In this document: positions 9,782 to 34,105 of the stretch, piece after piece
How positions within the stretch are numbered: the stretch's first letter is position 1
Layout: each line of letters begins with the position of its first letter
The notes under the pieces: generated by a model
What the model was told of the DNA's origin: nothing
The model's input: only the letters and a program-made list of their open reading frames with translations
Database searches by the model: none
Assembly: GCA_000997385.1 (NCBI GenBank)
Contig: LCBT01000005.1
Location: 1-59,262, forward strand
Origin: Candidatus Daviesbacteria bacterium GW2011_GWA1_41_61
GTDB lineage: Bacteria > Patescibacteriota > Microgenomatia > Daviesbacterales > UBA10151
Reading direction: 5' to 3'
DNA: 59,262 bases
Made by a program: the position numbers and the translations under genes

Positions 9782-9917
9782 ATCATTTAATTTTTATAAT
9801 CCGTTACATTGGCTAAGAGCCAAATTCGATATATTTCTAGTTAAATTTTACTAAAGGGATTGTGTATTGTATGTGGCAATGTGGGTATCTATGAAAGTGC
9901 TACACTTTGAATTGATA

Positions 9918-10655
9918 TTATTTCTCCCAGCCTAGATTTCTTAAAATTGAAGAAATATTTGAATACTTTCTATCAATCTCTCTATCAGCTTCTGCATATG
10001 TAATACCAAATTCAGCGGAAATTTTCTCGTAGGTCTTTTTAGAAGTAAGCCCAGTAATTCTTTTGTAACGATATATAGATGCAAAAATCTCAACTTCTCT
10101 CATAGATATATCCTTAATAGTTTCAGGCGCTGGGTCTGATTTTTCGTAATCCTTCATTGCTTCCTCGATTTCGTCCCACTTATCTGATATATACTTGCGT
10201 AGCTCACTTTTGCTGAGCCGTTTGTTAAGTTGAATGATGGGAAGAGCTGGGGTAATGCCTTTGTCTACCAAAGCACGTTTATTTCCTTCATACCATGAAT
10301 CCCAAAACATTTTGTCCTGCAGCCTAGTTGGTGGTGGGACAAGTTTATCATAGTGAAGAAAGCTTCTATTAAGCTGATGTCGTATTCCAAAAATTTGTAT
10401 AGGTTGGTAAACAGAGAAGATTTTCCCAAATTGAATGTATTCCTCCAGTGGGCGGACAAATTTAATGGGAATATGATATTTTTGAAGTAGTGGGATTAAG
10501 GTATCAGGAAATAGTTGTATCTTTTTAGCTTCAAACTGCTTTTTTAAGTCTTCAATTTCGGCTGCGAAATCTTCATAAAATTCTAACAAAAGTAGGTATT
10601 TACGTTCATCCTCACTCAGGTATTTTGCTGCATCGTCACTTATTTTAATCCTCAT
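9918..10655 (-). CDS. Hypothetical protein, possible DNA-binding C-terminus
   Basis: 245-aa ORF; HTH-like TSKKTYEKISAEFGITYAEADREIDRKYSNI. Confidence 0.65.
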   Translation of the reverse strand: MRIKISDDAAKYLSEDERKYLLLLEFYEDFAAEIEDLKKQFEAKKIQLFPDTLIPLLQKYHIPIKFVRPLEEYIQFGKIFSVYQPIQIFGIRHQLNRSFLHYDKLVPPPTRLQDKMFWDSWYEGNKRALVDKGITPALPIIQLNKRLSKSELRKYISDKWDEIEEAMKDYEKSDPAPETIKDISMREVEIFASIYRYKRITGLTSKKTYEKISAEFGITYAEADREIDRKYSNISSILRNLGWEK

Positions 10656-10732
10656 TTTTATATTAATTTATGGCTAATTATACTCTTTATTAGGGTGGTG
10701 GAAAACTCTTAAATTAGCTTCAAAAATGCTAA

Positions 10733-15380: not shown

Positions 15381-15930
15381 TAATAGCTGTGTCTGTTTTG
15401 ATATTTAATTGCATAGGTATTTGTTTCATGGCTTTTAGTGCCTGAATTGAGGTTAAATACTGCCTGTTTGCCCGATCCAGCTCCTTGCTCAAAAAGGCTA
15501 GGAATCTTATACCCATATCTGTAATTGAAGCCGGTGCTAAGTATCTATTAATCCGGCTTTGAATCTCTAAAGTTCGGATATAATTGACTGTGGCTAGTTC
15601 AGCCGTAGCTTTCTCGCTGGTAGTTTCACAAAGATACTCTTTTTGTAACTGCCTCATCATATCTACTCCAAAAGTTTTATAACTCTCTGATATAATTTTA
15701 GTCATCAGAATTCCGTTTTCGAACTCAAAAAGCGTTAATGCCTGAAATGCGTTATCTATATCGATTGTAGCTAATTTATTACTTTTATTATTTATAGACT
15801 CTTCATATACTTTTTGTAGAACAGTGTCTGGATCATTCCAAATTTTACATTTACTGAAAGCATCTCTAAGTTCCTCTGAAGTTTTTGTTTTAACAATCGT
15901 TTTACTGTTTATTTTAGGCTTAGTAGGCAT
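15340..15930 (-). CDS. Hypothetical protein (would lie directly downstream of the integrase in the excised circle)
   Basis: 196-aa ORF; its ATG overlaps the stop of the displaced integrase tail by about 11 nt. Confidence 0.65.
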   Translation of the reverse strand: MPTKPKINSKTIVKTKTSEELRDAFSKCKIWNDPDTVLQKVYEESINNKSNKLATIDIDNAFQALTLFEFENGILMTKIISESYKTFGVDMMRQLQKEYLCETTSEKATAELATVNYIRTLEIQSRINRYLAPASITDMGIRFLAFLSKELDRANRQYLTSIQALKAMKQIPMQLNIKTDTAIIGQNQMVQANSHE

Positions 15931-16051
15931 AACCAGCTTCCTTTAAGCTAGTAACGTTTATGTGGTTTCTAAGAAGTTCTAATTGTGCTGCTAGAGTTTT
16001 TGCTTCCTCTGAGGTATCATTTAGAAGGTTTTGGAGTCCGACTCGAATCCC
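15920..16051 (-). pseudogene. Displaced native C-terminal tail of the element 1 integrase
   Basis: In frame with the integrase through shared GGGATTCGA (G-I-R): VGLQNLLNDTSEEAKTLAAQLELLRNHINVTSLKEAGYAY*. Confidence 0.75.
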
Positions 16052-16201: not shown

Positions 16202-16372
16202 ATGGCTAAAAAAGGAAACAGGCAAATATTTCATTTAGAGTGCTCTGCTTGCAAAAGCAGAAATTATGTAGTGCAAAAAAATGTTATTAATACTAAAGAT
16301 AAGTTAGCTTTTAAAAAATACTGTAAAAAGTGCCGAAAAATCACCCTCCACAACGAGACTAAGATTAAATAA
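16202..16372 (+). CDS. rpmG: 50S ribosomal protein L33
   Basis: Not in the ORF track (too short); MAKKGNRQIFHLECSACKSRNYVVQKNVINTKDKLAFKKYCKKCRKITLHNETKIK*. Confidence 0.9.
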   Translation: MAKKGNRQIFHLECSACKSRNYVVQKNVINTKDKLAFKKYCKKCRKITLHNETKIK

Positions 16373-16580: not shown

Positions 16581-16654
16581 AGGGGCGTCGGTCAGTGGTA
16601 GGCCTGGAGTCTCCAAAACTCCTAACGAGGGTTCGATTCCTTCCGCCCCTGCCA
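16581..16654 (+). tRNA. tRNA-Trp(CCA), attachment site of element 2
   Basis: Acceptor AGGGGCG/CGCCCCT, anticodon arm GGAGT-CTCCAAA-ACTCC, T loop TTCGATT, discriminator G and CCA encoded. Confidence 0.92.
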
Positions 16655-18148
16655 ATTCTCACTTTCAGCATACTTGGCTACTATGCTGAATGGTAGTTTG
16701 AGGCTAAAATCAACCTTTTTATCCTTCAAAATAAGGTTCGAGACGACAAATCTCAGCAACTCCCTTTGTAACTCAGGTCTCGAACTGGCAAATAACTTCG
16801 GAGCCATATTGCAGAAGGTCAGAAATCCTTCTATTTCCTGCTTATATACCCTATCTGCAGTCTTGTGCTTCATTATTTCAGCATTTACGAGTTCGGTTTC
16901 CTTGTTGACCTCTGTTGATTTTGAATTGTAGGCTTCGTCTTTGATCTTTCCTTTGAGATATAAGTCCAACAGCTTTGAGGATTGCTCCTGTAGGTCTTTG
17001 TACTGACTGTTGAGAGCATCCAGCGAGTCTTGAAGGTATTCAGTTTCGTCTGCCAAGCTCACACTCATAATGTCTTTTATAGTTTTCAACTTTTTTAGAT
17101 CAAGCGAGGCTGCTTTGATTACCTTTGCTAATTGTTCTGTTATAACTTCCTCCCTCACATACTTCTGATGGCAGAATTGAGCCCCTCTGGGCTTGGTACA
17201 GTGATAATAAACATGACCCTTCTGCAATTCAGCAGTAACTCCGTTATGGCACTCACCACATTCCATAAGTCCAACAAATGAGAAATCGTGTTTATACCCT
17301 TTCTTCTTTTTCGGAGACAAGACCTCCTGCACTTTATCAAATAAGTCCTTTTCAATAATTGGTTCATGTTTTCCTGGTTTCACTTCGCCTTTCCATTCAA
17401 AAAATCCATAGTAAAAATGGGTGTGAAGAATCTTACCTATGGCTGACTTTCCAACTCGATTACCTTTTCGACTTCTGAAACCCTCATCAAAAAGCATCAA
17501 TCCGATTTTCCTTTCCGAGTATTCACCTGTAGCACAGAGCTCAAAGATTCTTTTGATAAAAGGTGCAACTACTGGATCAGGTACTGCTACATGGTCATCC
17601 AGCTTCGTTTTATAACCAATCGGAGGTATGTGGGGGTAGAAACCATCATCCACCAAAATATCATAAGCTTTTTTGACTTCATCAGAGAGATTGTTTAGAT
17701 AGAACCTGGCAAAACCATTTTGGATATCAAACTGTAGCTTTTGGAAACTCTTGGCGTTCTTGTTATAAACCAAAGATTCTTTGATGAAATGTATTTCTCT
17801 GCCTTCATTGTTCACCATATCCTCAATAATCACCCTATCTTTGAGATTGCCTCTCAAAAGTCTGTCCACTTTCTCACACAAGATTCCGAGGATGTTTTTG
17901 TTAGCCTGGATATAAGCCACCATTTCAGAAAACTTTTTTCGACCTTCTTTTTTTGCACTTTCATCAATATCAAACTCTTTGATTACTTCAAAATTATTTC
18001 GCTTGGCATAATCAAGGATTAGCTTCCTTTGGGCTTCAATGGAGACACCTTCTTCACGCTGGCGTTTACTGGAGACTCGATAATAAGCAACAAATTGATT
18101 TGCATTTTCCATATTCATCTTATCTGATTTTAGTAGATTAGTTGTCAT
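16622..18148 (-). CDS. Large serine recombinase/integrase; C-terminus ends antisense in tRNA-Trp
   Basis: FVAYYRVSSKRQREEGVSIEAQRKLILDYAKR, CEKVDRLLR, CGECHNGVTAE zinc ribbon; ends NWQGRKESNPR (tRNA antisense). Confidence 0.93.
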   Translation of the reverse strand: MTTNLLKSDKMNMENANQFVAYYRVSSKRQREEGVSIEAQRKLILDYAKRNNFEVIKEFDIDESAKKEGRKKFSEMVAYIQANKNILGILCEKVDRLLRGNLKDRVIIEDMVNNEGREIHFIKESLVYNKNAKSFQKLQFDIQNGFARFYLNNLSDEVKKAYDILVDDGFYPHIPPIGYKTKLDDHVAVPDPVVAPFIKRIFELCATGEYSERKIGLMLFDEGFRSRKGNRVGKSAIGKILHTHFYYGFFEWKGEVKPGKHEPIIEKDLFDKVQEVLSPKKKKGYKHDFSFVGLMECGECHNGVTAELQKGHVYYHCTKPRGAQFCHQKYVREEVITEQLAKVIKAASLDLKKLKTIKDIMSVSLADETEYLQDSLDALNSQYKDLQEQSSKLLDLYLKGKIKDEAYNSKSTEVNKETELVNAEIMKHKTADRVYKQEIEGFLTFCNMAPKLFASSRPELQRELLRFVVSNLILKDKKVDFSLKLPFSIVAKYAESENWQGRKESNPR

Positions 18149-18151
18149 AGT

Positions 18152-18691
18152 TCAAGGCGACTTCTTTATATCTCGAAACAAATCTTTTCTCATTGCTTTC
18201 CATGCATCAGACTTGACTAAATCACCATACTTTTTCCCTATCTCTTGGAGAATGTGCATCCAATAATTCGAATGCATCTCCTCATCCTTGAATACTTCAA
18301 AACGATCAAGATTCAGAGCTCCTTTTGCTTCCCTGTCGAGCTCTGCTATCTGTTCCTTGATTTTTTGTGTGCTTTCAAGCAGTTTGAAAGCTGAATCAGG
18401 ATCAAACTTCTCGGCTTCCACACCAAAAATCTGTCCAAACATATCGTTATAAAAAGTAATTGCGGTATCAGCTCGAATGATGATATAGCCTGAATACAGC
18501 ATTAGTTTTCGGAGGAATAAAGAAATAAGCTTATCAACTTCTTTCTTTGTCTCATTTGGCAGTTGCCTCCTCATCTCTTCAACCAAATCGAAATTACCTT
18601 GAGAAAACGCTTCTACAGCAGCCCTGAAAGCTTCATCAGCAGTCATATTTGCGAATGGTTCATTTAGATTCATTTTTGATTTTGTATGCAT
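18152..18691 (-). CDS. Hypothetical protein
   Basis: 179-aa ORF overlapping the next ORF. Confidence 0.6.
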   Translation of the reverse strand: MHTKSKMNLNEPFANMTADEAFRAAVEAFSQGNFDLVEEMRRQLPNETKKEVDKLISLFLRKLMLYSGYIIIRADTAITFYNDMFGQIFGVEAEKFDPDSAFKLLESTQKIKEQIAELDREAKGALNLDRFEVFKDEEMHSNYWMHILQEIGKKYGDLVKSDAWKAMRKDLFRDIKKSP

Positions 18692-19031
18692 ATTCCAATA
18701 CCTCCAATCTTTTTGCTAAATCACTCTGCTCAATAGTTTTGAGTGCGATACCCGATAAGTAACCTATTGCAGTTGCCAGTTTAGTGCTGGTTTTATTTCT
18801 TCGTAGGTCGTTTATGGTCTGTTCTATCAGTTTCAATACATCTTGCGTATTTGAGATTGCTATTTCATCATCCCTTCCATAGCTTCGTTTGGGGCTTTTA
18901 CCACCATCATGTACTGCTTGGGTTCGTTTCTCTCGCATCTTTTCAGAATGCCAGAAACAAAAGCTATCAGCTTGGATCGCCTTGGCTTTGCACCGCTTTT
19001 TATCTGTTTTTATAAAGTTGCATTGATTCAT
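18660..19031 (-). CDS. Small zinc-binding mobile-element protein
   Basis: MNQCNFIKTDKKRCKAKAIQADSFCFWHSEKMREKR (C-x8-C-x9-C-x2-H). Confidence 0.7.
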   Translation of the reverse strand: MNQCNFIKTDKKRCKAKAIQADSFCFWHSEKMREKRTQAVHDGGKSPKRSYGRDDEIAISNTQDVLKLIEQTINDLRRNKTSTKLATAIGYLSGIALKTIEQSDLAKRLEVLEYAYKIKNESK

Positions 19032-19290
19032 AGTTACATAAGCTAATGGGTGTACCTCCTAATAACTGCTTGTTGAGATAGCCCACCCTTCCTAAAGGTT
19101 TCATCCGCACATGTTTCCGTTTTCTCTCGGTATGCGTTAGCTCATTACCTGTTCCAAACTGCTCCTTTCGGTCAGAAGGGAGGCTCTCGTAATGCGTCAA
19201 GAATAACCCCCACATTTTTCTGTGTCTGCTTTATAGAGACCATTGTTTCCATAGCTCAATGGTAAGCAGTACACCCAAACAGTTAGTTAT

Positions 19291-19548
19291 TTAGCCTCGC
19301 TCCTGTTTATTCCCACGAGTTTTCAATAATTGAGATATTCTATCTTTATAAGCCAATCGTTTTTGGAATGCCTCTTTGGTGTAAATAGCCACCTCCCAAT
19401 CACCAAGTAATTGACTAAATTGCTTTATAAGTACAAAGCCATTGATTTCTTTTTCCTGGTACTGATTTTTTGGGTCAAAAAAGGACAGGAGAAATAATCG
19501 TCTAATCTTATTTAGCCAATTTTGGCTGTGAGTATGTTTCATTTTCAT
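19291..19548 (-). CDS. Hypothetical protein
   Basis: 85-aa ORF in the element gene string. Confidence 0.45.
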   Translation of the reverse strand: MKMKHTHSQNWLNKIRRLFLLSFFDPKNQYQEKEINGFVLIKQFSQLLGDWEVAIYTKEAFQKRLAYKDRISQLLKTRGNKQERG

Positions 19549-19560
19549 ATCAATTTTTTG

Positions 19561-19791
19561 TTATTTGCTGGCAAATATCCTGTCTTTCAAGGTACGAATT
19601 GCATCTGCATATTCCCTGGCTTTGACAGTCAAAGTATTAGACCAGTAGTCATTAGATATTTTGCGACAGGCTGTCTCACTTTCAAATACAAACCAATAGA
19701 AACCAGAATCAGCTTCCAATCCAGCAATTGTGAGATTCGCAGCTACCAAAGCAGATGCTTCGTAAATGTCTTTGGTTTTATACCTTTCCAT
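19561..19791 (-). CDS. Small protein, DUF5659-like
   Basis: YKTKDIYEASALVAA...FVFES...AIRTLKDRIFASK; similar to 9530-9781 in element 1. Confidence 0.55.
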   Translation of the reverse strand: MERYKTKDIYEASALVAANLTIAGLEADSGFYWFVFESETACRKISNDYWSNTLTVKAREYADAIRTLKDRIFASK

Positions 19792-19960
19792 AAGTCACAG
19801 CCTCCTTTTTCATTTTGTTGAGAACTTTTAGAAATCCAGACAAGTTGAAGTATGCTTCAAAAGCTTGAGAGTCAGTCAAAGGCTGCTTCGAAAGAAGTTC
19901 GAGTTCTTTTTGGAGATTTTCCTTACATCTTTGGCTCAATTTCCGATCCATATGAGCCAA
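19778..19960 (-). CDS. Hypothetical small protein
   Basis: 60-aa ORF overlapping 19561-19791. Confidence 0.4.
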   Translation of the reverse strand: MAHMDRKLSQRCKENLQKELELLSKQPLTDSQAFEAYFNLSGFLKVLNKMKKEAVTYGKV

Positions 19961-20000
19961 GTGTAGAAAAATAGGGGTTGAGAAACGAAGGAGAGAAAAA

Positions 20001-20618
20001 CTACCCTTTTTTATCCCTGGACATGTGGAGTTTCTTTTTCACTAACCTACATCGCTTACTGATTTCAGTCTCATCAAATGGTCTGTTTCCGTAAATCGTT
20101 TCTCCGATTTCTCGCATACTTTTTCCCTGGTTATAAAGTTCTATCATCCGAATATCTGTGTCAGAGATTTCAATGGGCTCAAAATCTTTCAACCATCTGG
20201 ACTGCAATTCTTTTATCAGATTCCAATCTGCTCTTTCTAAATCTTTGGCAGTAGTTTTTCTAAAAATCTGAATAAAAAGCTCCCATTTTTGTTTTTCGAA
20301 GTTGTATGAAAGTATTGGTTGTAAGGAAGAAATCGCTGGCAATTGCAATTTACCTGATTTCAGAAGATTGCGAATTGGCTCCTCCCAGTTCGCGGGCAAA
20401 TTACATTCATTTACAATTCGCTTCGGTTCATGAATAAGTAATCTTTCTTTGACACCAAAATTACGAATCACCATTTTCTTATCTTTAGTTACAATCACTT
20501 CTGATTCATATTTCTGAATCTTTTTCAGAACCTTTTTACACTCTGATAATAATCTCTCGCTGTGCTCAAGAATAAAATGGGTTTTTATTTCGGTAACTGA
20601 ACTTTTTGCATTTTTCAT
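20001..20618 (-). CDS. Hypothetical protein with possible HTH C-terminus
   Basis: IRMIELYNQGKSMREIGETIYGNRPFDETEISKRCRLVKKKL. Confidence 0.6.
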   Translation of the reverse strand: MKNAKSSVTEIKTHFILEHSERLLSECKKVLKKIQKYESEVIVTKDKKMVIRNFGVKERLLIHEPKRIVNECNLPANWEEPIRNLLKSGKLQLPAISSLQPILSYNFEKQKWELFIQIFRKTTAKDLERADWNLIKELQSRWLKDFEPIEISDTDIRMIELYNQGKSMREIGETIYGNRPFDETEISKRCRLVKKKLHMSRDKKG

Positions 20619-20720
20619 ATCAATCTACATCTGTGCTCAATTGTACCAAAAAGAAGCCATAAACCTATAACTTTGGTCTGGTAATTGAGTTATAATAAGG
20701 CTGAAATTGAGATGTAAATT

Positions 20721-22343
20721 ATGACGAACAACACAGATAAACAAAAGGACAATACTACTTCCTCATCTCCTGTTATTACCGAAACTAACCTTGCACAGTT
20801 AGCCAGAGGATTGCTTCTGATGAATATCCAAAAGGAAATGGATGAACCAGGATACACTCCAATTGATAGAATCACGAAAAACCGCAAAGTTGTACAAAGA
20901 CGACAAGAGTACTGTAGCGATATTGAGCGGGTAATTAGCGAGGCGAAGCTTACAATCCATCTCCAATTAGAAGTTCAGAATGAAGTAAAAGTTGGTGAAA
21001 AGTCATACCAACCAGAGGAAATAATAAGTTACTATAATGGGATTTTCCTTGACCAAGTTCATCAGTTGAAAGATAAGCTTTTCAGAATGATTGCACTCCT
21101 GCTTTTAGTACCTGAAACAGCACAAGACAATCAAAAGAAAGACCCTAAAAAGATCGAATATCAGCCATTTCTAACTAAAAACGAAGTGAAACTGAAAGAG
21201 ATTGGTATTTACGACTTACTATCTCAATGGGGCTCTGGCAATCTTGCAAAGGCATTAGATAAGAGAACCTATCATCATCATTTTGTAAGTACATTACGAC
21301 TAAATAGTGACTTCCAAAACATAAAAATGTCCAGGATGATGCTCAACCCACTAACTTCAAATCAGTTGAGCGAATATGGTAAGAAGAGAATGGCGGAGAT
21401 TGGTGAAGAATCTTATAGAAAATGGAGAAAAGAACTCGTAGATAAGCAGCAAGAAATAATCGGTGAAATAGAACAAAACATTGAAGAGATTTCAGAAAAA
21501 CTTATCACCCATTTCAAAGTCCCTGCAACTCCTGTTGAATCTGCACCCATAATCAGTAAGTACATGGAGTTTTTGGCCTCTATGGACATACATAATGAAG
21601 CAAGTATAACCAAGATTCCTACTGACCTGAAACCATTGATAGACGGATTCCTCGAAATTGCTGAAAAAGAAATTGGTGGCACACTTCATCTTCCGTATTC
21701 AGTTTATCTTGTTGGAAGCTGTGCACGAGGAGAGTATATTCCTGGCTGCTCTGACATAAACCTTTATTTTATTTTCGATGCTGATACAAATACGAATCTT
21801 TCAAAGAGCAATCCACTCGTAAATCTTGTTTTTCTATCAAAGAAACAATATCAGTCTAACGCCCACAAAAAGGATCGTTTCATTTGTTGGTCTGATGGTG
21901 TCCTACTCCATGGCAATGGTTTCAAAATGGGAAAGAAGGACTTTCCTAAACCAGGATCACTGCTGTGCCTACTCCTGAACAAGGGGTTTATCGAAAAGCT
22001 TGAGCAGATCAGGAAAGAAGTTGCAGCATTGAAGAATCAAGACCCTGATACTTTGAGGCAGTACAGTGTAAAAATGGTCAAAATTATGCTGGATTTTGAT
22101 TTTGGGGTTGCAATGTCTAATAAACCTTTCTACACCGCAAGCAGGAAAGGTAAAATCGCCTACACCAAGGAATCATGGCCGAATGAACGCAGAACAAACA
22201 CTTTTGAGCAGATTTACTATAAAGGAATCATTCGGCAAGAGGATTTTCCAATGGTAATTGACACCTTCCTTGAAAATGCGAAGAAAAACTATCAGAAACT
22301 ACTTGATGTTGAGGCAGATATTATCAAAAATCCAGCTCGATAA
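20721..22343 (+). CDS. Nucleotidyltransferase-fold protein
   Basis: YLVGSCARGEYIPGCSDINLYFIF matches GS-x-R-G-x-SD-x-(D) motif with the second acidic residue replaced by Asn. Confidence 0.65.
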   Translation: MTNNTDKQKDNTTSSSPVITETNLAQLARGLLLMNIQKEMDEPGYTPIDRITKNRKVVQRRQEYCSDIERVISEAKLTIHLQLEVQNEVKVGEKSYQPEEIISYYNGIFLDQVHQLKDKLFRMIALLLLVPETAQDNQKKDPKKIEYQPFLTKNEVKLKEIGIYDLLSQWGSGNLAKALDKRTYHHHFVSTLRLNSDFQNIKMSRMMLNPLTSNQLSEYGKKRMAEIGEESYRKWRKELVDKQQEIIGEIEQNIEEISEKLITHFKVPATPVESAPIISKYMEFLASMDIHNEASITKIPTDLKPLIDGFLEIAEKEIGGTLHLPYSVYLVGSCARGEYIPGCSDINLYFIFDADTNTNLSKSNPLVNLVFLSKKQYQSNAHKKDRFICWSDGVLLHGNGFKMGKKDFPKPGSLLCLLLNKGFIEKLEQIRKEVAALKNQDPDTLRQYSVKMVKIMLDFDFGVAMSNKPFYTASRKGKIAYTKESWPNERRTNTFEQIYYKGIIRQEDFPMVIDTFLENAKKNYQKLLDVEADIIKNPAR

Positions 22344-22345
22344 TC

Positions 22346-22861
22346 TTACTTTTTGACTCTGTAGTGTAATTCAACAATTCCATCGTCAATTTTCTCAACT
22401 TTCATCAATTCCAGCTTGAGCTCGAAATCAGAAAGACTGAATACTGGGATTCCTTCCCCTAAAATTGAGGGGTTCACATCAAATATAACCTCGTTTATCA
22501 AACCTCTTTTTGCAAACTCGCTGTTCAGGGTTGACCCGCCTGTAATAATTGCCTCGTTGAAACCTTCTGATTCGAGAGTTTCAAGAGCTTGTTCTGGTGA
22601 GTTTGCCAATGTAAAACCATTTTTGAGATCAAGATTAGAGGTTGAAACTATAATCTTCTTCACACCTTCAAGTTCAGTGAGATAATCTCCTTCCCACTTG
22701 ATAACTGCCTCATAGGTCTTTCTACCCCAAATAAAACAACCAATCCTTTTAGCCAAACTTACGAATTGTATCCAGTTTGTATGTGACAAGAAATCTTCAC
22801 TACCAGATTTAGAAGCAATAATTCCATTCGCTGAAACTGCCATAGTTAGAATAATTTTCAT
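22346..22861 (-). CDS. Dihydrofolate reductase / RibD C-terminal-like reductase
   Basis: MKIILTMAVSANGIIA, FIWGRKTYEAV, EAIITGGSTLNSEFAKRGLINEVIFDVNPSILGEGIPVF. Confidence 0.87.
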   Translation of the reverse strand: MKIILTMAVSANGIIASKSGSEDFLSHTNWIQFVSLAKRIGCFIWGRKTYEAVIKWEGDYLTELEGVKKIIVSTSNLDLKNGFTLANSPEQALETLESEGFNEAIITGGSTLNSEFAKRGLINEVIFDVNPSILGEGIPVFSLSDFELKLELMKVEKIDDGIVELHYRVKK

Positions 22862-23187
22862 AATTCTTCTTCTGAAATAAGAGGGTAAATGTCAAAAGCC
22901 ACTTCTTCATAAGGATGGACTTTCCTAATTGCTGCGATAACTGCCTTTGCTTTTTTTTGATCGCTAACACATTCAATCCGTTCTTCTTGTACTTGTTCAA
23001 ACTTACCAATTTCGCCAATAGCTGGATGAGCACCTTCCATTGGCTTATATCTGCCTATTCCATCAACTGAATAGCTACAGTGACTGTAAAGCCCAATTTT
23101 CCCTGCCCCTGCGCCTCCTATTGCCTGACGAACTATATCAGTATGAGTTTTAGGTACAAAAACAACAATTTTTACAGTTTTATTCAT
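22858..23187 (-). CDS. Stand-alone NIF3/YqfO insert-like (PII-like fold) protein
   Basis: FVPKTHTDIVRQAIGGAGAGKIGLYSHCSYSVDGIGRYKPMEGAHPAIGEIG...HPYEEVAFDIYPL. Confidence 0.78.
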   Translation of the reverse strand: MNKTVKIVVFVPKTHTDIVRQAIGGAGAGKIGLYSHCSYSVDGIGRYKPMEGAHPAIGEIGKFEQVQEERIECVSDQKKAKAVIAAIRKVHPYEEVAFDIYPLISEEEL

Positions 23188-23567
23188 TTTTCCTCTATCA
23201 CTTGCTTCAATTTCTCTAAAATATCGGTAGTGAATGGCTCCTGTAATTCACCATTTTCCATCCACTCGTAATACTCAAAGTTCGTAGAATTATCGCTAAT
23301 TGGAGTCAGTGTATATTTGACATGATAATTTCCGTCTTTTTGAACCATTGTAAAACTATTATTTTTCAATTCAGTAAGTGTATATTCATTCCAAGTGCCA
23401 TTTTGACTCTGATTCCTGTAGATTGATCCGACTTTTACAGGCCATTCACTCGTTTCTTCTTTCACTAATGAACCAATCCATAAAGGTGTATTTTTCGGAT
23501 TTAGGACAAAGGAGATTATTTCACTTACTGGCTTGTCAATCTGGATCGTCAATCGCTTATCTTTCAT
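23184..23567 (-). CDS. SRPBCC/START-like domain protein
   Basis: IDKPVSEIISFVLNPKNTPLWIGSLVKEE...GSIYRN, size and pattern of polyketide-cyclase-like family. Confidence 0.65.
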   Translation of the reverse strand: MKDKRLTIQIDKPVSEIISFVLNPKNTPLWIGSLVKEETSEWPVKVGSIYRNQSQNGTWNEYTLTELKNNSFTMVQKDGNYHVKYTLTPISDNSTNFEYYEWMENGELQEPFTTDILEKLKQVIEEK

Positions 23568-23636
23568 AATTCATATTGTATCAAAACCTAAAGACTTGAG
23601 CGAGACTTTATTGACAATAATTGATACAATCAAATC

Positions 23637-23978
23637 ATGAGTGCAACACCATTTTCTCCCAGTGTAACTAAAGGCAATTTTGTCTTTACATCTGGCCAAA
23701 TCCATCTAAAAGAAGGAAAACTTCTTGAGGGGACAATCGAAGAAAAGACACATCAAGTAATGAAGAACCTTCAGGGAATACTTGAAAAGGCTGGCGTGAC
23801 TTTCAACGATGTTGTCAAAACGACCATTTACACCACAGACTTATCATTATATGGAAAAGTAAATGAGGTTTATTCGACATACTTTACCGACTCTTTTCCT
23901 GCAAGAGAAATGGTTTGCGTAAAAGAACTTCCTCTTGGAGCTGTATTAGAGATCAGCATGGTCGCCTTCAAATCCTAA
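23637..23978 (+). CDS. RidA family deaminase-like protein
   Basis: PFSPSVTKGNFVFTSGQIHLKEGKLLEGTIEEKTHQVMKNLQGILEKAGVTFNDVVKTTIYTTDL. Confidence 0.9.
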   Translation: MSATPFSPSVTKGNFVFTSGQIHLKEGKLLEGTIEEKTHQVMKNLQGILEKAGVTFNDVVKTTIYTTDLSLYGKVNEVYSTYFTDSFPAREMVCVKELPLGAVLEISMVAFKS

Positions 23979-24084
23979 AAGCTAACGCTTGTGGAGGATT
24001 GAGAAATTGTTGAAGTCTCTGAAGATCAAACTGGCTGATTTTGTGCCAAATTGTTCGAAGGTCATGCACTAATGCCTGCCAATT
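23968..24084 (-). pseudogene. Displaced native C-terminal tail of the element 2 integrase
   Basis: In frame with the integrase through AATTGGCAG (N-W-Q): ALVHDLRTIWHKISQFDLQRLQQFLNPPQALAFRI*. Confidence 0.75.
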
Positions 24085-24793
24085 AAAAAAGCCCGCCGGG
24101 ACATGATGAATGAAACTGGATAAAAAGGTTTCTCACTTCACCTCCCAAATCCGAGGCTCTAATCTTTTGTACCAGGCGCTGAAATATTTTCTTATCCGCC
24201 TGGGTATCACCCAAGTAAACCAAAGACCTTTCCTGATGTAATTTTTCAAACAAACGCATACGTTTCCCTAGCTTGAGTCTTACCAACTCAGTCCACTTAA
24301 AAAGAGGAAAAATAACTGCTTCGAGTCCCTGGGGATAAAGAATGTCGCCCCGAAAGATCCCCACTTCCTGAAGCTGATTTAAGAGCAAAGTCTCTCTTTG
24401 ATCTTCAGGAAGAGACAGGGAGTTTACCACCCTACCCATTACTCCCCCTGGCATGTTCAAAAACTGAGCATAAGCACCACATAAAGGTCTTGAAGAATAG
24501 ATGAAAACATTGTTTAATTCATCCTCATGCAGTCTTTCCAAAAATGCGTTCTCCTGCCCGGACAACTCGCCTACCGACAATCCAATCCTGAAACCTCGAG
24601 GTTTCAGGATTGGCCCATCAAGGTCAACAATAATGTCGCGTGGTCCGGGTATTTGGTCAATTGCCGCCTCTGAATTTTTCAAGGCGCCGGAATGAGGAAG
24701 CTGGGTGAGGTCAAGGCGCCCGCAGGAGACAGTTCTCCCTTGACTGGTTTGAATATCCCAAGGAATAATTTCGATGCAGCGATTATACACCAC
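24083..24793 (-). CDS. HAD-like hydrolase-related protein with palindromic insertion
   Basis: DIIVDLDGPIL motif, LVYLGDTQADKKIF. Confidence 0.6.
   Translation of the reverse strand: MVYNRCIEIIPWDIQTSQGRTVSCGRLDLTQLPHSGALKNSEAAIDQIPGPRDIIVDLDGPILKPRGFRIGLSVGELSGQENAFLERLHEDELNNVFIYSSRPLCGAYAQFLNMPGGVMGRVVNSLSLPEDQRETLLLNQLQEVGIFRGDILYPQGLEAVIFPLFKWTELVRLKLGKRMRLFEKLHQERSLVYLGDTQADKKIFQRLVQKIRASDLGGEVRNLFIQFHSSCPGGLF
24582..24613. repeat. Perfect 32-bp palindrome in frame in the HAD-like gene
   Basis: CCAATCCTGAAACCTCGAGGTTTCAGGATTGG, self-reverse-complementary. Confidence 0.95.
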
Positions 24794-24837
24794 TGAAGCT
24801 ATACAAGCAAAAACTTTCGGAAACCAAGAAATGTAGA

Positions 24838-25554
24838 CTAAAAATTTACCTTAATCCTGGCATTTTGAATGCCTGCCTCATAACCGGTGTTAGTTTTTAA
24901 CTGAAGTTTATAAATTTTTTTACCTGAAGTTAAGATAAAACCTTGAGAATTTACCCAGGAATAACTTTCAGTAGTTACTGAGACCTCAGATGGCAGCAGA
25001 GCCAACTTATCATCGCTGTTATAGATCCTGGCATAAGCTTTACCATTTCCCTGAAAAACCCGCAATGACACCTCAAGCTGCATGCTTTTGTATCCCGGAT
25101 AATCAGCCGGGTCTAAAGTAATCTGCAGAGCATCGACAGCAGTCCAATCTAAAGCACTGGAGGCCCCTCCTGTACCTAAAGGGATATACAAAGGGGCCTT
25201 AGTAGTGGAAACAGTATCTTTAGGTTCTTTTAAATCATTGACCTGAAGCTGTAAATCAGCCACCGTTCTCTCTAAACTCCTCACCTGGGTCTGCAAAGTT
25301 TTCAAACTAAGATCTTGACTGTCAATTTTAGAAGGAGTGGGGCTAGGTTTTTCCTTCCCGGAAGAAGAAGCAGGGCTGATAACTGCTGGCAGATTCTCGG
25401 GGGTCGGAGAAGCCTGAGTTAACTGAAAGGTCTCAGTTAAAGTAGTCAAAGGATCAATTGGGGAACTTTTATCTGCAACTCTATAAATTCTGACATAAGC
25501 TAACACTCCCATCATCAAAGAGATCAGCAGTACCAAAGGCAGAAACTTCACCAT
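24838..25554 (-). CDS. Membrane-anchored hypothetical protein with coiled coil and C-terminal beta domain
   Basis: N-terminal TM VKFLPLVLLISLMMGVLAYVRIY, coiled coil LQTQVRSLERTVADLQLQVNDLK. Confidence 0.65.
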   Translation of the reverse strand: MVKFLPLVLLISLMMGVLAYVRIYRVADKSSPIDPLTTLTETFQLTQASPTPENLPAVISPASSSGKEKPSPTPSKIDSQDLSLKTLQTQVRSLERTVADLQLQVNDLKEPKDTVSTTKAPLYIPLGTGGASSALDWTAVDALQITLDPADYPGYKSMQLEVSLRVFQGNGKAYARIYNSDDKLALLPSEVSVTTESYSWVNSQGFILTSGKKIYKLQLKTNTGYEAGIQNARIKVNF

Positions 25555-25623
25555 AGATTTATCATAACATGTTCATTCTAATTTATTATTAAATTCTAAG
25601 TTTTGATATAATTTCTTGATTAT

Positions 25624-26517
25624 ATGAAAATAATAGTACACAAAGAACAAGAAATCGGGATTCAAGACAGCCTAAACCTAGAACAGCAAAACGGCTCTCG
25701 AAGAAGGGTAAATTATAGCCTTGTTAATGCGGTGGTTAACAGTCGGGTTCTCGAGTTAAGACGATTAGATCAAGATTTAACAGTTACTACCCTCTCTGAA
25801 GAGGCCCAAGCAGCAATCCGAGAACATCGGCAAGAGGTCTTAGGAGATATTATTGACTGCAATATGGGGCTTATTGTTTCTATTGCTAAACAATATGCGG
25901 AAAAAGTAGAGTTGGAAGATCTAAAAGGTGTCGGTATTGTTACCCTGTTAGAAGCAATACCCCATTTTAAAATAGGAAGGGCTAAATTCTCCACCTTTGT
26001 CTTTCCCAGGATAAGAAAGGCTATCCATTGTTACGCCATAGAACAAAGATCTCCCATTAAAGAGACGGATTACCATTACAGAAAAGTCAAAAAAGCAGGA
26101 GGGTCTTCTGCAGCTCAAACTTATACAATCTTCAGTCTTTCTAAAGGCCTTAACCAAACTAATGCCGAAAGTGACCCGATTGAGAATATTCTGCCCAATG
26201 ATTTTATCGGAGATGTCGAACAAGAGGCTTTGTCTCCTCTCACTTTAATAGACTTGATGAATCTTGCTCAAGAAGCCGGGTTAGATTTCCGGCAGCAACG
26301 AATATTATGGCTGAGGGCAGTAATGTCTTCTGATGTATACAGAAGTTTCCCCCTAAGCCTAAGGGATATTGGTAAACTTTTGGTCCCTCCTGTTACTGGC
26401 GCAAGGGTAAAACAAATTGAAGATAAGATAAAAAGTAAGCTTTGCACACCAGCCTTTTTGCCCCGTTTGAGACAAATCCTTTCTCAAGGCACCCGGATCG
26501 ACGACTACTTAGCTTAA
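25624..26517 (+). CDS. RNA polymerase sigma-70-like factor
   Basis: CNMGLIVSIAKQYAEKVELEDLKGVGIVTLLEAIPHFKIGRAKFSTFVFPRIRKAI (region 2) and LSLRDIGKLLVPPVTGARVKQIEDKIKSKL (region 4). Confidence 0.83.
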   Translation: MKIIVHKEQEIGIQDSLNLEQQNGSRRRVNYSLVNAVVNSRVLELRRLDQDLTVTTLSEEAQAAIREHRQEVLGDIIDCNMGLIVSIAKQYAEKVELEDLKGVGIVTLLEAIPHFKIGRAKFSTFVFPRIRKAIHCYAIEQRSPIKETDYHYRKVKKAGGSSAAQTYTIFSLSKGLNQTNAESDPIENILPNDFIGDVEQEALSPLTLIDLMNLAQEAGLDFRQQRILWLRAVMSSDVYRSFPLSLRDIGKLLVPPVTGARVKQIEDKIKSKLCTPAFLPRLRQILSQGTRIDDYLA

Positions 26518-26551
26518 AAACTTAACTTTATGTTATGCTAAATATTAGTTT

Positions 26552-27835
26552 ATGGCTGATCAGGCCTCTCATCATAAACATGACCATGCTACCCTAACTT
26601 TCCCGGAAGGTTTTTTATGGGGAACTGCTACCTCTGCCCATCAGGTAGAGGGAGGAAACAGCAATAACGATTGGTGGCAGTGGGAACAAACAAGACCACA
26701 GCAGTTTTGGTCAGGGCCCTCTTGTGACCATTACCATAAATATGAAGAGGACTTCGATTTAGCTAAAAACTTAGGCCACAACGCTCACAGGCTATCTATT
26801 GAATGGTCCAGGATTGAACCCGAAGAGGGTAAGTTTGATTTAAGGGAGATTGAACATTACCAGAATGTTTTAAAAGCTTTAAAGGACAGGGGGCTGAAGG
26901 TGATGTTAACCCTGCACCATTTTACTAACCCTGCCTGGTTTGCCCAAAAAGGGGGCTGGGAGAACAGAAAATCAGCTTTTTATTTTGAAAGGTTTGTCAA
27001 AACCATTGTCCCAGAAATTAAAGATTATGTTGATTTTTGGATCACCATTAATGAACCGGGGGTTTTGGTCTGGGGAAGCTATATTGCCGCCATTTGGCCT
27101 CCCCAAAAAAAAAGTAGGTGGAAAGCTTTAAAAGCGATGTGGAATATCATCCGAGCCCATAAAAAGGCTTACAAAGCCATCCATAAGTTAGTTCCTAAAA
27201 CAGAAGTTGGCCTAGCCCAAAATGTCCAGTCTTACACAGCCTATCATAAACATTCTTTAATAGAACAATTTGGGGTAATCTTTTCTGATTTGGCTTCCAA
27301 CCATATCTTTTATTTTTTAACCAAAGGTTATCATGACTTTTATGGTTTAAATTATTACTTCCATTATCGTTTAAAAGAGCATGGCTTAGGAGTAGAGATT
27401 ACTGATGTGACCCACTTTTCCAAAGATATTTCTGACATGGGGTGGGAAATCTTTCCCGAGGGTATTTTTAATGTCCTAACTGACCTTTCCAACCACATAC
27501 CCATTTATCTCACTGAGTGCGGGATAGCCACCAGTAATGATGACCGGAGGATCAGGTTTTTAATGCAGTATCTACAGGAAGTTTACAGGGCTATCCAGGC
27601 TGGAGTAAATGTTAAGGGTTTTTTCTACTGGAGCCTGCTGGATAACTTTGAATGGGCTGATGGATATGAACCTAAGTTTGGCCTGATTGAAGTAGATTTT
27701 AAAACCCAAAAAAGGACTATTAAACCCTCAAGTTTACTTTATCAAGATATCATCAAACACAATGGCATCAGACATAAGCTAATGAAATTCCTAGGCCACA
27801 GGGTTTCTGTCAAAGAGGTTTTAGAAGAAAAATAG
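26552..27835 (+). CDS. Glycoside hydrolase family 1 (beta-glucosidase-like)
   Basis: FPEGFLWGTATSAHQVEGGNSNNDWWQWE, TINEPGV, YLTECGIA, GFFYWSLLDNFEWADGYEPKFGLIEVD. Confidence 0.95.
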   Translation: MADQASHHKHDHATLTFPEGFLWGTATSAHQVEGGNSNNDWWQWEQTRPQQFWSGPSCDHYHKYEEDFDLAKNLGHNAHRLSIEWSRIEPEEGKFDLREIEHYQNVLKALKDRGLKVMLTLHHFTNPAWFAQKGGWENRKSAFYFERFVKTIVPEIKDYVDFWITINEPGVLVWGSYIAAIWPPQKKSRWKALKAMWNIIRAHKKAYKAIHKLVPKTEVGLAQNVQSYTAYHKHSLIEQFGVIFSDLASNHIFYFLTKGYHDFYGLNYYFHYRLKEHGLGVEITDVTHFSKDISDMGWEIFPEGIFNVLTDLSNHIPIYLTECGIATSNDDRRIRFLMQYLQEVYRAIQAGVNVKGFFYWSLLDNFEWADGYEPKFGLIEVDFKTQKRTIKPSSLLYQDIIKHNGIRHKLMKFLGHRVSVKEVLEEK

Positions 27836-27906
27836 CACATATAAAGAGTTGATTAATATCCTCTTCTGTCTTGTCTTAAAGCTTCATTTTGTTATATGGT
27901 TAAAGT

Positions 27907-28812
27907 ATGAGTTTTCTGCCCATAGCAGTTTTAGCCTATGCTTTAAGTGGAGGAGCTATTATCATTGATAAGATCCTCCTTAAAACCTCTCTTCCCAACC
28001 CCCTAACTTATGCTTTCTATATAAGTTTATTGCAGTTGTTAGTCCTACTGCTTATTCCCTTTGGTTTTAGCCTAAATTTGGGAACACCTGCCTATTTAGC
28101 TATCATTTCAGGTATATTTTATGTCTTTGCCCTTTATACCTTTTTTGCCAGCTTAAAGAAAAATGAGGCTTCCGTTGTAGGACCTTTGGTAGGCATGCTC
28201 AATCCCTTTTTTACCATCCTTTTGGGAAGCTTATTTTTAAGCCAAACACTTACCCCTATCCAAAATTTTGCAGTCTTCATCTTAATCTTGGGAGCTTTAA
28301 TATTAACCTTAAATATCTGGAGGAACAAACTTCAGTTCAACCGGAGGATCCTTTGGATCATCACTTCAGGTCTGCTGTTTGCTTTATCTTACCTACTTTT
28401 AAGGGAGGCCTTTTTTACCCTCTCTTTTTTAGACGGATTGATTGTCAGCCGGACTTCCTCAGGATTGTTTGTTTTAACGTTTTTAATTTTCCCCCATATA
28501 AAAAAACAAATTTTCACCTCCAACAAATCCCAACAGACCGTCAGTTCAAAATCTACGCTTATTTTACTGGCGTCAGGACAAACCATGGGGGCTCTCTCAG
28601 GATTACTGATTGCCTATGGTGTAAAACTGGCCAATCCGGCTCTGGTGAATTCTCTTTTCGGGATTCAATATTTGGTCATTTTAACAACTGCCATCTTTTT
28701 GGCTAAAAATAGGCCTCAGCTTCTGGATGAAACACTGAGTAAGGCTGTTATTACCCAAAAAGTGGTTGGGGCAGCAGTCTTAAGTTTGGGACTTTATCTT
28801 TTAGCTGTATGA
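27907..28812 (+). CDS. EamA/DMT-family transporter
   Basis: 10-TM-like hydrophobic pattern; EASVVGPLVGMLNPFFTILLGSLFLSQTLTPIQ. Confidence 0.82.
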   Translation: MSFLPIAVLAYALSGGAIIIDKILLKTSLPNPLTYAFYISLLQLLVLLLIPFGFSLNLGTPAYLAIISGIFYVFALYTFFASLKKNEASVVGPLVGMLNPFFTILLGSLFLSQTLTPIQNFAVFILILGALILTLNIWRNKLQFNRRILWIITSGLLFALSYLLLREAFFTLSFLDGLIVSRTSSGLFVLTFLIFPHIKKQIFTSNKSQQTVSSKSTLILLASGQTMGALSGLLIAYGVKLANPALVNSLFGIQYLVILTTAIFLAKNRPQLLDETLSKAVITQKVVGAAVLSLGLYLLAV

Positions 28813-29888
28813 AAAAACATCACCAATCTAAAATCAACCAAGGACACCGGCACCTACAAATTTTTGTATTAGTTGTCTTCATATTGCTTTCTTTAATTTT
28901 TATCCAAGCCAACAGGGTAATTGACCAAGAAAATATCTCCCAAACCATTCCTTTAGGGGTCTCATTTTCTCCCCGATATGCCCAGGATTTAGGACAAGAT
29001 CCCCAAGTTGTCTACAGACAAATCTTAAAAGATCTGGATGTTAAAAACTTACGCTTAAGTGCCTCTTGGGACGAGATTGAACCCAAACCTGGAAAATTTA
29101 ATTTTGATAATCTTGATTATTACTTAAGTCAAGCTGAGGCAGCTCAAGCTCAGGTTTTACTGGCAGTAGGTTTTAAACTGCCCCGCTGGCCGGAGTGCCG
29201 GTCTCCTTATTGGTTAGATTATAAAAATACCCAGCTTCGCCAGGAACGCCAACTGCTGATGGTCAAAGAGGTGGTCAAACGCTATAATCAAAACCCCACA
29301 GTTTTTGCCTTTCAGGTAGAAAATGAACCGCTTTTATCCTTTGATTTTGGTATTTGCCCTACCGCTGATGAAAAGTTTTTGCAGCAGGAAGTGGCTTTAA
29401 TCCGGTCTTTGACTAAAAAACCTTTAATTTTAACGGACTCGGGGGAACTCGGGTGGTGGACTAAACCGATGCAGCTTTCAGATTATATGGGGACAACTTT
29501 ATACCGGATTGTCCACAACAATTACTTGGGGCTGGTTCCCTATTATTTTCAGCCTTGGTATTACCGTTTGAAATTTGGATTAATCAGCACTCTTTTAGCC
29601 CCTCAAAATAAAGGCACCATCGTAGTCGAGCTTCAAGGGGAACCTTGGGCTAATACTGCCCTGACTGAGGTTTCTTTAAATCAACAGCTTCAGAGCTTTC
29701 CTTTAAGCCAATTTAAAACCAATGTCAACTTTGCTAAAAAAGTTGGAGCCAAGCAGATTTACCTGTGGGGAGCAGAATGGTGGTACTACATTAAATCCCA
29801 AGGCCATCCGGAGTATTGGGAATATGCCAAAGGGATATTCAAAGGCATAAATTTCTTTGCTTATCTCTATTTATCTACTGCTTTCTAA
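28809..29888 (+). CDS. Cellulase-like (GH5-like clan A) glycoside hydrolase, membrane anchored
   Basis: RLSASWDEIEPKPGKFNFDNLDYYL, VFAFQVENEPLL, QIYLWGAEWW. Confidence 0.72.
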   Translation: MKKHHQSKINQGHRHLQIFVLVVFILLSLIFIQANRVIDQENISQTIPLGVSFSPRYAQDLGQDPQVVYRQILKDLDVKNLRLSASWDEIEPKPGKFNFDNLDYYLSQAEAAQAQVLLAVGFKLPRWPECRSPYWLDYKNTQLRQERQLLMVKEVVKRYNQNPTVFAFQVENEPLLSFDFGICPTADEKFLQQEVALIRSLTKKPLILTDSGELGWWTKPMQLSDYMGTTLYRIVHNNYLGLVPYYFQPWYYRLKFGLISTLLAPQNKGTIVVELQGEPWANTALTEVSLNQQLQSFPLSQFKTNVNFAKKVGAKQIYLWGAEWWYYIKSQGHPEYWEYAKGIFKGINFFAYLYLSTAF

Positions 29889-30009
29889 ATTGACCTATAT
29901 TGATTTAATAAGACCTATTTAGTAGAGCTTTATTTTCCTAAATTCCGAGATTACAATGAGCGTGGAGAGACCCTTATGTGAAGCTGATGATACAGTTTAG
30001 ATATATTAC

Positions 30010-32325
30010 ATGAGCAGGCTGCCGCGTAAATGCCCTACCGGTAAGAAAAAAATCCTCTTTTCAAAACTCTCTTATGTCCCAAAAAAAATTTATCCTGTAA
30101 CCCATTCCTTAAAACTTTTTTTACTCCTTTTAGCTTTTATCCTCATCAAGATTGGAACCTGGACACAACTGTTAATTAAAATTTTGATTTTAAATAGTCT
30201 GAAAACATTTGGTTATCTTCAAAGCACCTTGGTCAGTAACTGTAAATCTCTCTTGCCACTTATCCCGTATTACTTATCCTGTATCACTAAAAAACACTAC
30301 CTCCTTCCTAAAGGAGCCCGGGTTAGAATTTTAGTCTTCTTAATCATCTTGGCTTTTTTTACTTATTCCCAAGTGATTGTTAAACTGGCTGCCCAAATCC
30401 CCTCTCCTCACCAGTTAACTTCCACCCAGCGCCCTTTAACCACGGAAGTTTATGCCCGGGATGGCAAACTTTTATACCAAATTTATGAAGGCAGAAACAG
30501 GAAATTAATTAAACTGGAAGATCTGCCCCAATATTTAATTAATGCCACCATTGCCATTGAAGACCAACACTTCTTTACTCATCCGGGGGTTGATCCTTTG
30601 GGAATTATCAGAGCCTTAAAAGTTAACTTAAGAGAAGGACAGGTGGAAGGAGCTTCAACTATCACCCAACAGCTGATTAAAAATATCATCCTAACTCCCG
30701 AAAAAACCTATCAAAGAAAGATCAAAGAGATTCTTCTAGCCTTTTGGGCAGAGAGGATCTATTCCAAAAGGCAGATCCTGCAGATGTACTTTAATGAAGC
30801 CCCTTATGGCGGCCCGGCTTGGGGCATCGAAGCAGCTGCAGAAACCTACTTTGACAAATCAGCTCACAATTTAACCCTGGCAGAAAGCGCTTACCTGGCA
30901 GGATTACCAGCTTCTCCCACTGAATTTTCTCCCTATGGCACACACCCGGAAAAGGGTTTACAAAGACAGCAGGAGGTACTAAGGAGAATGGTGGAAGACG
31001 GTTATATTACCCAAGCTCAAGCCCAACAAGTTTTGGAGGCAAAACTTTCCTTTAAACCTCCCCGTCAGGAGATTAAAGCCCCCCATTTTGTAATGTATGT
31101 CCGTGCACTTTTGGCTTCCCAGTATGGAGAAAGGACCGTTTCCCAAGGCGGGCTGAAAGTGACTACCTCTTTAGATTTAGATATCCAGCAGATGGCTGAA
31201 GCGGTGGTAGAAGAGCAGGTAGATAAATTAGCTGGACTGAGGGTAGGAAATGGAGCAGCCATGATTACCAAAGCTCAAACCGGGGAAATTTTAGCCATGG
31301 TCGGCTCAAAAGACTATTTTGATAAAAACGGAGGCAACTTTAATGTCACCCTCTCCCTTCGCCAGCCGGGCTCCTCCATCAAACCGATCACTTATTCATC
31401 TGCCTTTAAGTTGGGTTACTCTCCAGGAACGATTCTACTAGATACTCCCACCACCTTCCCCAACCCCTGGGGCCAAGCTTACTCCCCCAAAAACTATGAC
31501 GGCAGATTTCATGGAGCTGTCAGTATCAGAGTAGCCCTGGGTTCTTCCTATAATATCCCGGCTGTTAAGATGCTGGCTGTAGTTGGTATCCCTGCCATGC
31601 TACAAACTGCCAAGGAGATGGGAATTACCACTTTAAACAAACCACAAGACTACGGCCTTTCTTTAACTTTAGGGGGAGGAGCTGTCAAGATGCTGGAGAT
31701 GATGTCGGTTTATGGCAGTTTGGCTTCAGAGGGGGTCAAACACCCTTCCTTAGCTATTTTAAAGGTAACAGATTCTTATGGTAATGTCTTGGAAGATCAT
31801 CAGGAGATTGAAGGAGAGAGGGTTTTAACAGAAGAGGTGGCCTACCTCATTTCCCATATCTTGGCTGATAATAAGGCCCGGACTCCGGCTTTTGGACCAA
31901 ACTCCTTACTAAAAATTCCTGGCAGGACAGTAGCAGTTAAAACCGGAACCTCTGATGATAAGAGGGATAATTGGACCTTTGGTTACACTCCGGAGTTTGT
32001 GGTAGGGGCTTGGGTAGGCAACAATGACAACTCCCCCATGGATCCCAAGCTTACTTCAGGCATTACCGGGGCAACCCCTATCTGGCATGATATTATGAGC
32101 AATCTAACCTTTCAAAGGGCTGATATCGCCTTTAAAAAACCCAAAGGGATTATGGAGATCGATAATGCCTGGGGAAAAGATTTAGCCATCTCCGGTCAAA
32201 CTCCCAAAACAGTGGTCGGTTACAAAAAAGTCAAACAGATTGATGAGGCCACCGGCAGTGAGAGAGAGGTTATTACCTACACTGATCCCTTTTCTATCTA
32301 CACTCCAGATAAAACCACCCAGTAA
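30010..32325 (+). CDS. Penicillin-binding protein 1A family
   Basis: AIEDQHFFTHPGVDPLGIIRAL, GASTITQQLIKN, PGSSIKPITY, KTGTSDDKRDNWTFGYTP. Confidence 0.95.
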   Translation: MSRLPRKCPTGKKKILFSKLSYVPKKIYPVTHSLKLFLLLLAFILIKIGTWTQLLIKILILNSLKTFGYLQSTLVSNCKSLLPLIPYYLSCITKKHYLLPKGARVRILVFLIILAFFTYSQVIVKLAAQIPSPHQLTSTQRPLTTEVYARDGKLLYQIYEGRNRKLIKLEDLPQYLINATIAIEDQHFFTHPGVDPLGIIRALKVNLREGQVEGASTITQQLIKNIILTPEKTYQRKIKEILLAFWAERIYSKRQILQMYFNEAPYGGPAWGIEAAAETYFDKSAHNLTLAESAYLAGLPASPTEFSPYGTHPEKGLQRQQEVLRRMVEDGYITQAQAQQVLEAKLSFKPPRQEIKAPHFVMYVRALLASQYGERTVSQGGLKVTTSLDLDIQQMAEAVVEEQVDKLAGLRVGNGAAMITKAQTGEILAMVGSKDYFDKNGGNFNVTLSLRQPGSSIKPITYSSAFKLGYSPGTILLDTPTTFPNPWGQAYSPKNYDGRFHGAVSIRVALGSSYNIPAVKMLAVVGIPAMLQTAKEMGITTLNKPQDYGLSLTLGGGAVKMLEMMSVYGSLASEGVKHPSLAILKVTDSYGNVLEDHQEIEGERVLTEEVAYLISHILADNKARTPAFGPNSLLKIPGRTVAVKTGTSDDKRDNWTFGYTPEFVVGAWVGNNDNSPMDPKLTSGITGATPIWHDIMSNLTFQRADIAFKKPKGIMEIDNAWGKDLAISGQTPKTVVGYKKVKQIDEATGSEREVITYTDPFSIYTPDKTTQ

Positions 32326-32333
32326 AAAATGAA

Positions 32334-32741
32334 TTACTCCAGCACTACCCAGCCTCTTAAATCTTTCTTTTTATATTTGATAGGCGAGGTAATGAACCTT
32401 TCCGACTTAGAGATAAAAATTAGTGTCCCAAAGACACTTCCCTGTTTTAAAGCTTGATATTTTTTGTCCTCTCCTTTGTTCCCGACAGTAATCTGTTTGC
32501 CATAATCTCTAAAAATTTTTTCTATATCCGGCTGCTCCATGCCTTCAAAAAAGAGTGCCTTTTTAACCTTTAATTGTCCTATAATCTCTTTCCCCGGTAA
32601 TTTCATAAAAACAATGTCCCCCACTGATACCTGGCCATAAGGAGCAATCCGGTGTTTACTAAAACGGGTCTCAATAGTCTTAACCCCACACAAAATAGCC
32701 TCAATAGCTGATTTGTGCATGATAGCCAAGTGCTTCTTCAC
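32334..32741 (-). CDS. ASCH domain protein
   Basis: AIEAILCGVKTIETRFSKHRIAPYGQVSVGDIVFMKLPGKEIIGQLKVKK. Confidence 0.78.
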   Translation of the reverse strand: MKKHLAIMHKSAIEAILCGVKTIETRFSKHRIAPYGQVSVGDIVFMKLPGKEIIGQLKVKKALFFEGMEQPDIEKIFRDYGKQITVGNKGEDKKYQALKQGSVFGTLIFISKSERFITSPIKYKKKDLRGWVVLE

Positions 32742-32999: not shown

Positions 33000-33026
33000 A
33001 GAGTCCGAACTAAGTGAGGACTCATT
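33000..33026. repeat. Small palindrome between secE and nusG
   Basis: GAGTCC-GAACTAAGTGA-GGACTC; CGAACTAAGTGAGGA resembles CGAACGTTAGTGAGGA in the rplA insertion; AGAGTCCGAAC also occurs at 32760-32770. Confidence 0.5.
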
Positions 33027-33649: not shown

Positions 33650-33670
33650 GGAACCTAAGTAACTTAAACT

Positions 33671-34099: not shown

Positions 34100-34105
34100 T
34101 CTACC

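Follow-up and report, generated by a model that had tools for sequence, protein, structure and literature searches.

How does a mobile element that enters a tRNA gene come to end its own integrase in tRNA sequence, and what becomes of the C-terminus that the enzyme loses? We asked this of a stretch of 59,262 nucleotides of Candidatus Daviesbacteria bacterium GW2011_GWA1_41_61 (contig LCBT01000005.1 of assembly GCA_000997385.1; hereafter the window), in which a large serine recombinase (LSR) gene runs into tRNA-Trp. Other genomes in the comparisons are designated below by G numbers, and contigs or loci by L numbers.

Ends of the element and the integrase C-terminus

The tRNA-Trp gene (CCA anticodon) was located by ARAGORN at 16581-16654 on the forward strand and forms the left half of attB. 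The integrase gene lies on the reverse strand at 16622-18148, and its product has Resolvase (PF00239), Recombinase (PF07508) and zinc ribbon (Zn_ribbon_recom, PF13408) domains above the Pfam cut-offs; the nearest solved structure is that of the A118 integrase. The protein ends NWQ followed by GRKESNPR and a stop, and these last 8 residues are antisense tRNA-Trp. The 10-bp sequence CCTGCCAATT occurs at 16648-16657 (attL) and 24075-24084 (attR) and nowhere else in the window, and the core shared by nearly all relatives is CTGC at 16649-16652. When the element side of the right copy is joined to the integrase gene, the reading frame gives NWQALVHDLRTIWHKISQFDLQRLQQFLNPPQALAFRI and a stop, so that the enzyme carries a 35-aa tail, ALVHDLRTIWHKISQFDLQRLQQFLNPPQALAFRI, encoded on the reverse strand at 23968-24075. 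The stop codon of this tail (23968-23970) overlaps the end of ridA (23978) on the other strand by 11 nt. The integrase 3' end at 16653-16700 on the reverse strand (ending AKYAESENWQ) is the other half of attP, and is conserved up to the tRNA in L031 (below) and in L091.

The initial annotation had proposed this C-terminal swap, placed the right end of the element at 24084 and the neighboring cargo genes inside it, and held that the repeat and reconstructed tail independently fix that end. The repeat alone does not do so, since the same kind of search finds 10 matches of at least 10 bp where 5.3 are expected in shuffled sequence. An independent integration of the same element proves both ends. 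The contig L031 (genome G291, Ca. Microgenomates, a different family) encodes a 96% identical LSR, again in tRNA-Trp, and although its tRNA-Trp differs in sequence, and gives a different wrong ending (VCQDSNLEQRFWRPP and a stop), nucleotide homology to the window starts exactly at 16648 and ends at 24082. L031 carries two copies of the tail, at 1 and 760, with a RibD/DHFR-like gene between them, and the contig stops within the core; it is an LSR element with one extra gene plus arm outside it. The three tails read ALVHDLRTIWHKISQFDLQRLQQFLNP, ALVRDLRTIWSKINAFDIERIQYFLNP and ALVSELRTIWHKISSFDLGKMQQFLIP, each continuing further. No uninterrupted site was found, as the gene just right of the element (24083-24793) has no match in the 42 other family genomes searched. 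Neither close LSR relatives nor the arm pattern were found in a collection of viral contigs.

The cargo consists of a protein with a nucleotidyltransferase domain (NTP_transf_2; 20721-22343, forward strand), a RibD-C/DHFR-like protein (RibD_C; 22346-22861, reverse), a small protein that the initial annotation called NIF3-like and that has no Pfam match at 0.001 (22858-23187, reverse), an SRPBCC/polyketide cyclase-like protein (Polyketide_cyc2; 23184-23567, reverse) and a RidA/L-PSP protein (Ribonuc_L-PSP; 23637-23978, forward) that reads toward the arm. Relatives carrying the same cargo support its placement inside the element: the first two genes are shared with L084 of G046 (1765 bp at 79.6% identity, window 21098-22862), and a protein 76% identical to the NIF3-like one lies beside the arm in G333.

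Comparison thus shows that 16649-24079 is an integrated LSR element in tRNA-Trp whose attP lies inside the 3' end of its own integrase gene. In the circle the integrase carries a conserved tail of about 35 aa, and integration at the CTGC core parts the gene from that tail and leaves antisense tRNA codons and an early stop in its place. Excision would restore the tail, with a circle junction of the GTGCATGCACTAATGCCTGCCAATTCTCACTTTC type (CACTAATGCCTGCCAATTCTCACTTTC in the window) and a restored tRNA-Trp followed by AATTAAAAAAGCCCGCCGGG. We infer, without excision reads or recombination assays, that the swap makes the circle-encoded enzyme the full, integration-competent form and the integrated one altered or silenced.

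Conservation of the tail and its occurrence in other serine integrases

To test whether the tail is a real protein end, we searched 374 genomes of the class for the DNA that encodes its beginning, a conserved arm of attP at 24043-24079 on the reverse strand (GCAGGCATTAGTGCATGACCTTCGAACAATTTGGCAC). A pattern search found it at 19 places in 14 genomes, with 2 hits for the reversed control, and a sequence model found it in about 22 genomes at E below 1e-6. Among 192 genomes of the phylum the only hits were G000 and G048, both of this class. Intact tails keep ALVxDLRTIWxKIxxFDxxxxQxFLNP. Over 12 tails, chosen because their frames are open, variation at the three codon positions is 0.33/0.22/0.52, and codons 12-27 have a pN/pS of 0.46 in frame, against 1.17 and 1.22 in the shifted frames, which also hold 12 and 15 stops. 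In copies without an integrase the frame is often broken while the first ~38 bp persist, as they do in copies with a decayed frame such as L085, L086 and L090, so two constraints overlap, a DNA site and a C-terminus.

A joined form is seen in nature. In G046 (L027/L134) an LSR 3' fragment 65% identical to that of the window continues in frame from KNENWQ into GLVNYVSNFYRENCSSYQWLLTPN and a stop, with no tRNA nearby. That tail is of a sister type of arm (type II), and a type II element with its LSR is seen in G135, where the LSR is in tRNA-Trp and the arm 7 kb away.

The initial annotation had suggested a general strategy because a second integrase in the window appeared to have the same architecture, and this holds. 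Element 1 has an LSR at 5404-7050 on the reverse strand whose C-terminus lies in antisense tRNA-Thr (5393-5467). With its 9-bp core TCGAATCCC at 5446 and 16043, its circle tail is VGLQNLLNDTSEEAKTLAAQLELLRNHINVTSLKEAGYAY and a stop (15920-16042, reverse strand), and this stop overlaps the start of the next gene (15930). Homologs of this LSR in G025 and G014 sit in tRNA-Gly instead, and the arm lies upstream of each, with 74% and 37% amino-acid identity, respectively. A search for repeats marking the right ends of 20 other LSR elements gave a clear answer only for L157 (19 bp), a third case of this design; L135 gave 18 bp. In the class, 36 of 47 scorable serine-integrase loci run into antisense tRNA, of ten kinds; for most of these the right end was not determined, and the swap there is inferred.

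Tail arms between single genes

The initial annotation did not note that the tail arm is itself a repeated, tRNA-Trp-anchored site between single-gene segments. The arm or its sister type recurs in dozens of genomes, and most arms have no LSR between them and tRNA-Trp, but one gene. Combining both types, which were chosen by similarity so that counts depend on thresholds, 23 of about 33 site-bearing loci have tRNA-Trp or a piece of its 3' end downstream in the same orientation (naive binomial 4e-34, ignoring shared ancestry). The 46 segments have a median length of 830 bp and mostly one main ORF. G153 holds about nine sites in 4.2 kb, with a 24-nt piece of the tRNA-Trp 3' end downstream; seven of these agree within 1 nt in 31 (TTGCAGGGGCTAGTAAACTTTGTCAGGAACT), while the genes and flanks are unrelated. 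Its cargo includes two NUDIX, MazG-like, glyoxalase-like and methyltransferase proteins, and G153 has further sites at its real tRNA-Trp. G048 has four sites and G383 four or five. The same cargo appears in different arrays: a nitrilase-like protein (60% aa identity) in G048 and G279, a lipoprotein in G137, G353 and G258, and the NIF3-like protein in G333 and the window.

We consider the best reading, in which we have good though not complete confidence, to be a serine integrase whose attachment site holds its own C-terminus, swapped on integration, and whose arm probably also serves as an integron-like cassette site. In this view, which is inferred, the integrase pairs a site whose conserved half is the tRNA-Trp 3' end with sites whose conserved half is the tail arm, the other half being loosely constrained, so that arm-plus-one-gene units can be stacked beside tRNA-Trp. 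A bolder form of the idea, which we judge only slightly more likely than not, is that Microgenomates carry an integron-like gene-capture system run by large serine integrases, with the tRNA-Trp 3' end as attI-like platform and the DNA encoding the integrase's own tail as attC-like cassette site; inserting a unit between an integrase and the tRNA would even give the integrase a new tail.

Alternative explanations and related systems

The main rival for the arrays, which remains possible, is accretion and decay: whole LSR elements might insert one after another at tRNA-Trp and lose their integrases, leaving the gene nearest the arm, in which case the tail swap is real but single-gene units never move as such. 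Most arrays have no LSR beside them, LSR 3' remnants lie beside tRNA-Trp in L091 and L127 and a short one in L124, L031 has its extra gene plus arm, and the left ends of cassettes differ and are only weakly alike. Part of the LSR-less segments may thus be decayed elements, and this model explains part of the data. On the other hand, the near-identical G153 sites lie among unrelated genes and flanks with no LSR remnant found in the array, the site survives where the tail has decayed, the units are compact with one gene each, and the same gene is found in different positions. It is unlikely that the tail is a by-product of an attP that merely abuts the integrase stop. LSR att sites may often lie next to the integrase gene, and the integrated gene still encodes the recognized catalytic and DNA-binding domains; however, purifying selection at the protein level extends over codons 12-27, beyond the most conserved DNA stretch, and the element 1 tail is conserved at 74% aa with a stop that overlaps the next start codon. 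A conventional integron is very improbable in spite of the tandem single-ORF cassettes with a repeated site, since no match to the integron integrase IntI (TIGR02249) exceeds the cut-off in 10 array-bearing or element-bearing genomes, three G153 sites and the window arm fold no better than shuffles, the sites encode LSR tails, and the anchor is tRNA-Trp. A chance repeat or assembly artefact, suggested only by the near-chance 10-bp repeat, is refuted by the same ends in an independent genome, and the arm is found in dozens of genomes with a nearly empty reversed-pattern control.

Our searches of a partial literature found no report of serine-integrase cassette arrays or of integrons in these phyla. 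The element works like the archaeal "suicidal" tyrosine integrases (SSV1, pTN3, pT26-2; PMC8371274), in which the att site lies inside the integrase gene, often a tRNA gene, and integration splits that gene so that the integrated integrase may be inactive. Those are tyrosine enzymes with att sites of 40-50 bp within the gene, which the review calls exclusive to archaea, whereas here a bacterial serine integrase loses only a C-terminal tail, which becomes antisense tRNA. In the integration-dependent immunity of mycobacteriophage BPs (PMC4557955), attP also lies inside an ORF and integration changes the C-terminus and so the protein's fate, but there the repressor is cut by 33 residues and loses a degradation tag; here it is the integrase itself. 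The element is a member of neither system. Integrons, including CALIN arrays (PMC8618304), share tandem single-ORF cassettes behind a fixed anchor and arrays without a nearby integrase, but IntI is a tyrosine recombinase and attC acts as a folded strand, while here the sites are unfolded and derived from an LSR arm, and the anchor is the tRNA-Trp 3' end. SCC elements of staphylococci and relatives (PMC4693430) are inserted and excised by recombinases (Ccr), but at the 3' end of rlmH rather than at tRNA-Trp, and their units appear to be far larger than one gene. The phages of tRNA-dependent lysogeny (PMC10865867) share a short core (about 10 bp) at a tRNA gene, but use a tyrosine integrase, and the tRNA is destroyed and replaced there and kept intact here.

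Integration that edits the integrase's own C-terminus had been described, in the review consulted (PMC8371274), only for archaeal tyrosine enzymes. Here it appears in bacterial serine integrases of at least two families, which gives a simple built-in way to couple integrase form to integration state, and offers natural tail variants for a widely used class of genome-engineering enzymes. If the tail arm is also a cassette site, gene-cassette capture evolved a second time with an unrelated enzyme, in reduced-genome bacteria for which the review consulted (PMC8618304) lists no integrons, and it explains how these cells take up single genes such as those for NUDIX, nitrilase, RibD-like and glyoxalase-like proteins.

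Units of the cassette arrays and their ends

Between two arms of locus L089 (genome G048), at 5968-8571, lie a nucleotidyltransferase gene and membrane-protein genes that, judged by eye alone, look like a CBASS-type defence module. Units with different genes at this locus share near-identical left ends (97% over 75 bp, 4978-5052 versus 9828-9902; 92% over 198 bp, 5730-5925 versus 10527-10724), as if gene bodies were exchanged between fixed ends. In addition, a recurring promoter-like motif (AACTCTnnnCCAACTCTTGATATAAT) lies right behind the core at the left ends of several cassettes (loci L085, L081, L031 and L089). Contig L031 ends, at its position 1, exactly at the recombination core next to a tail copy, as expected if integrated and excised or rearranged forms coexist in the sample.

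An element 1 type integrase

The LSR1 homolog at locus L170 (genome G034; G034:C1:264212-265744) is an element 1 type integrase with an 854-aa open frame, whose end runs past tRNA-Gly(CCC) into other coding-like sequence.

Other genes of the window

We also observed a 1772-aa repetitive, secreted-looking protein with a Ser/Thr/Pro-rich C-terminal half at window 38134-43452. Finally, rpmG and tRNA-Trp are about 16 kb from nusG-rplK-rplA in the window (16202-16372 and 33014-34981); since these adjoin in many bacteria, host genes 24083-32741 may be a separate insertion.
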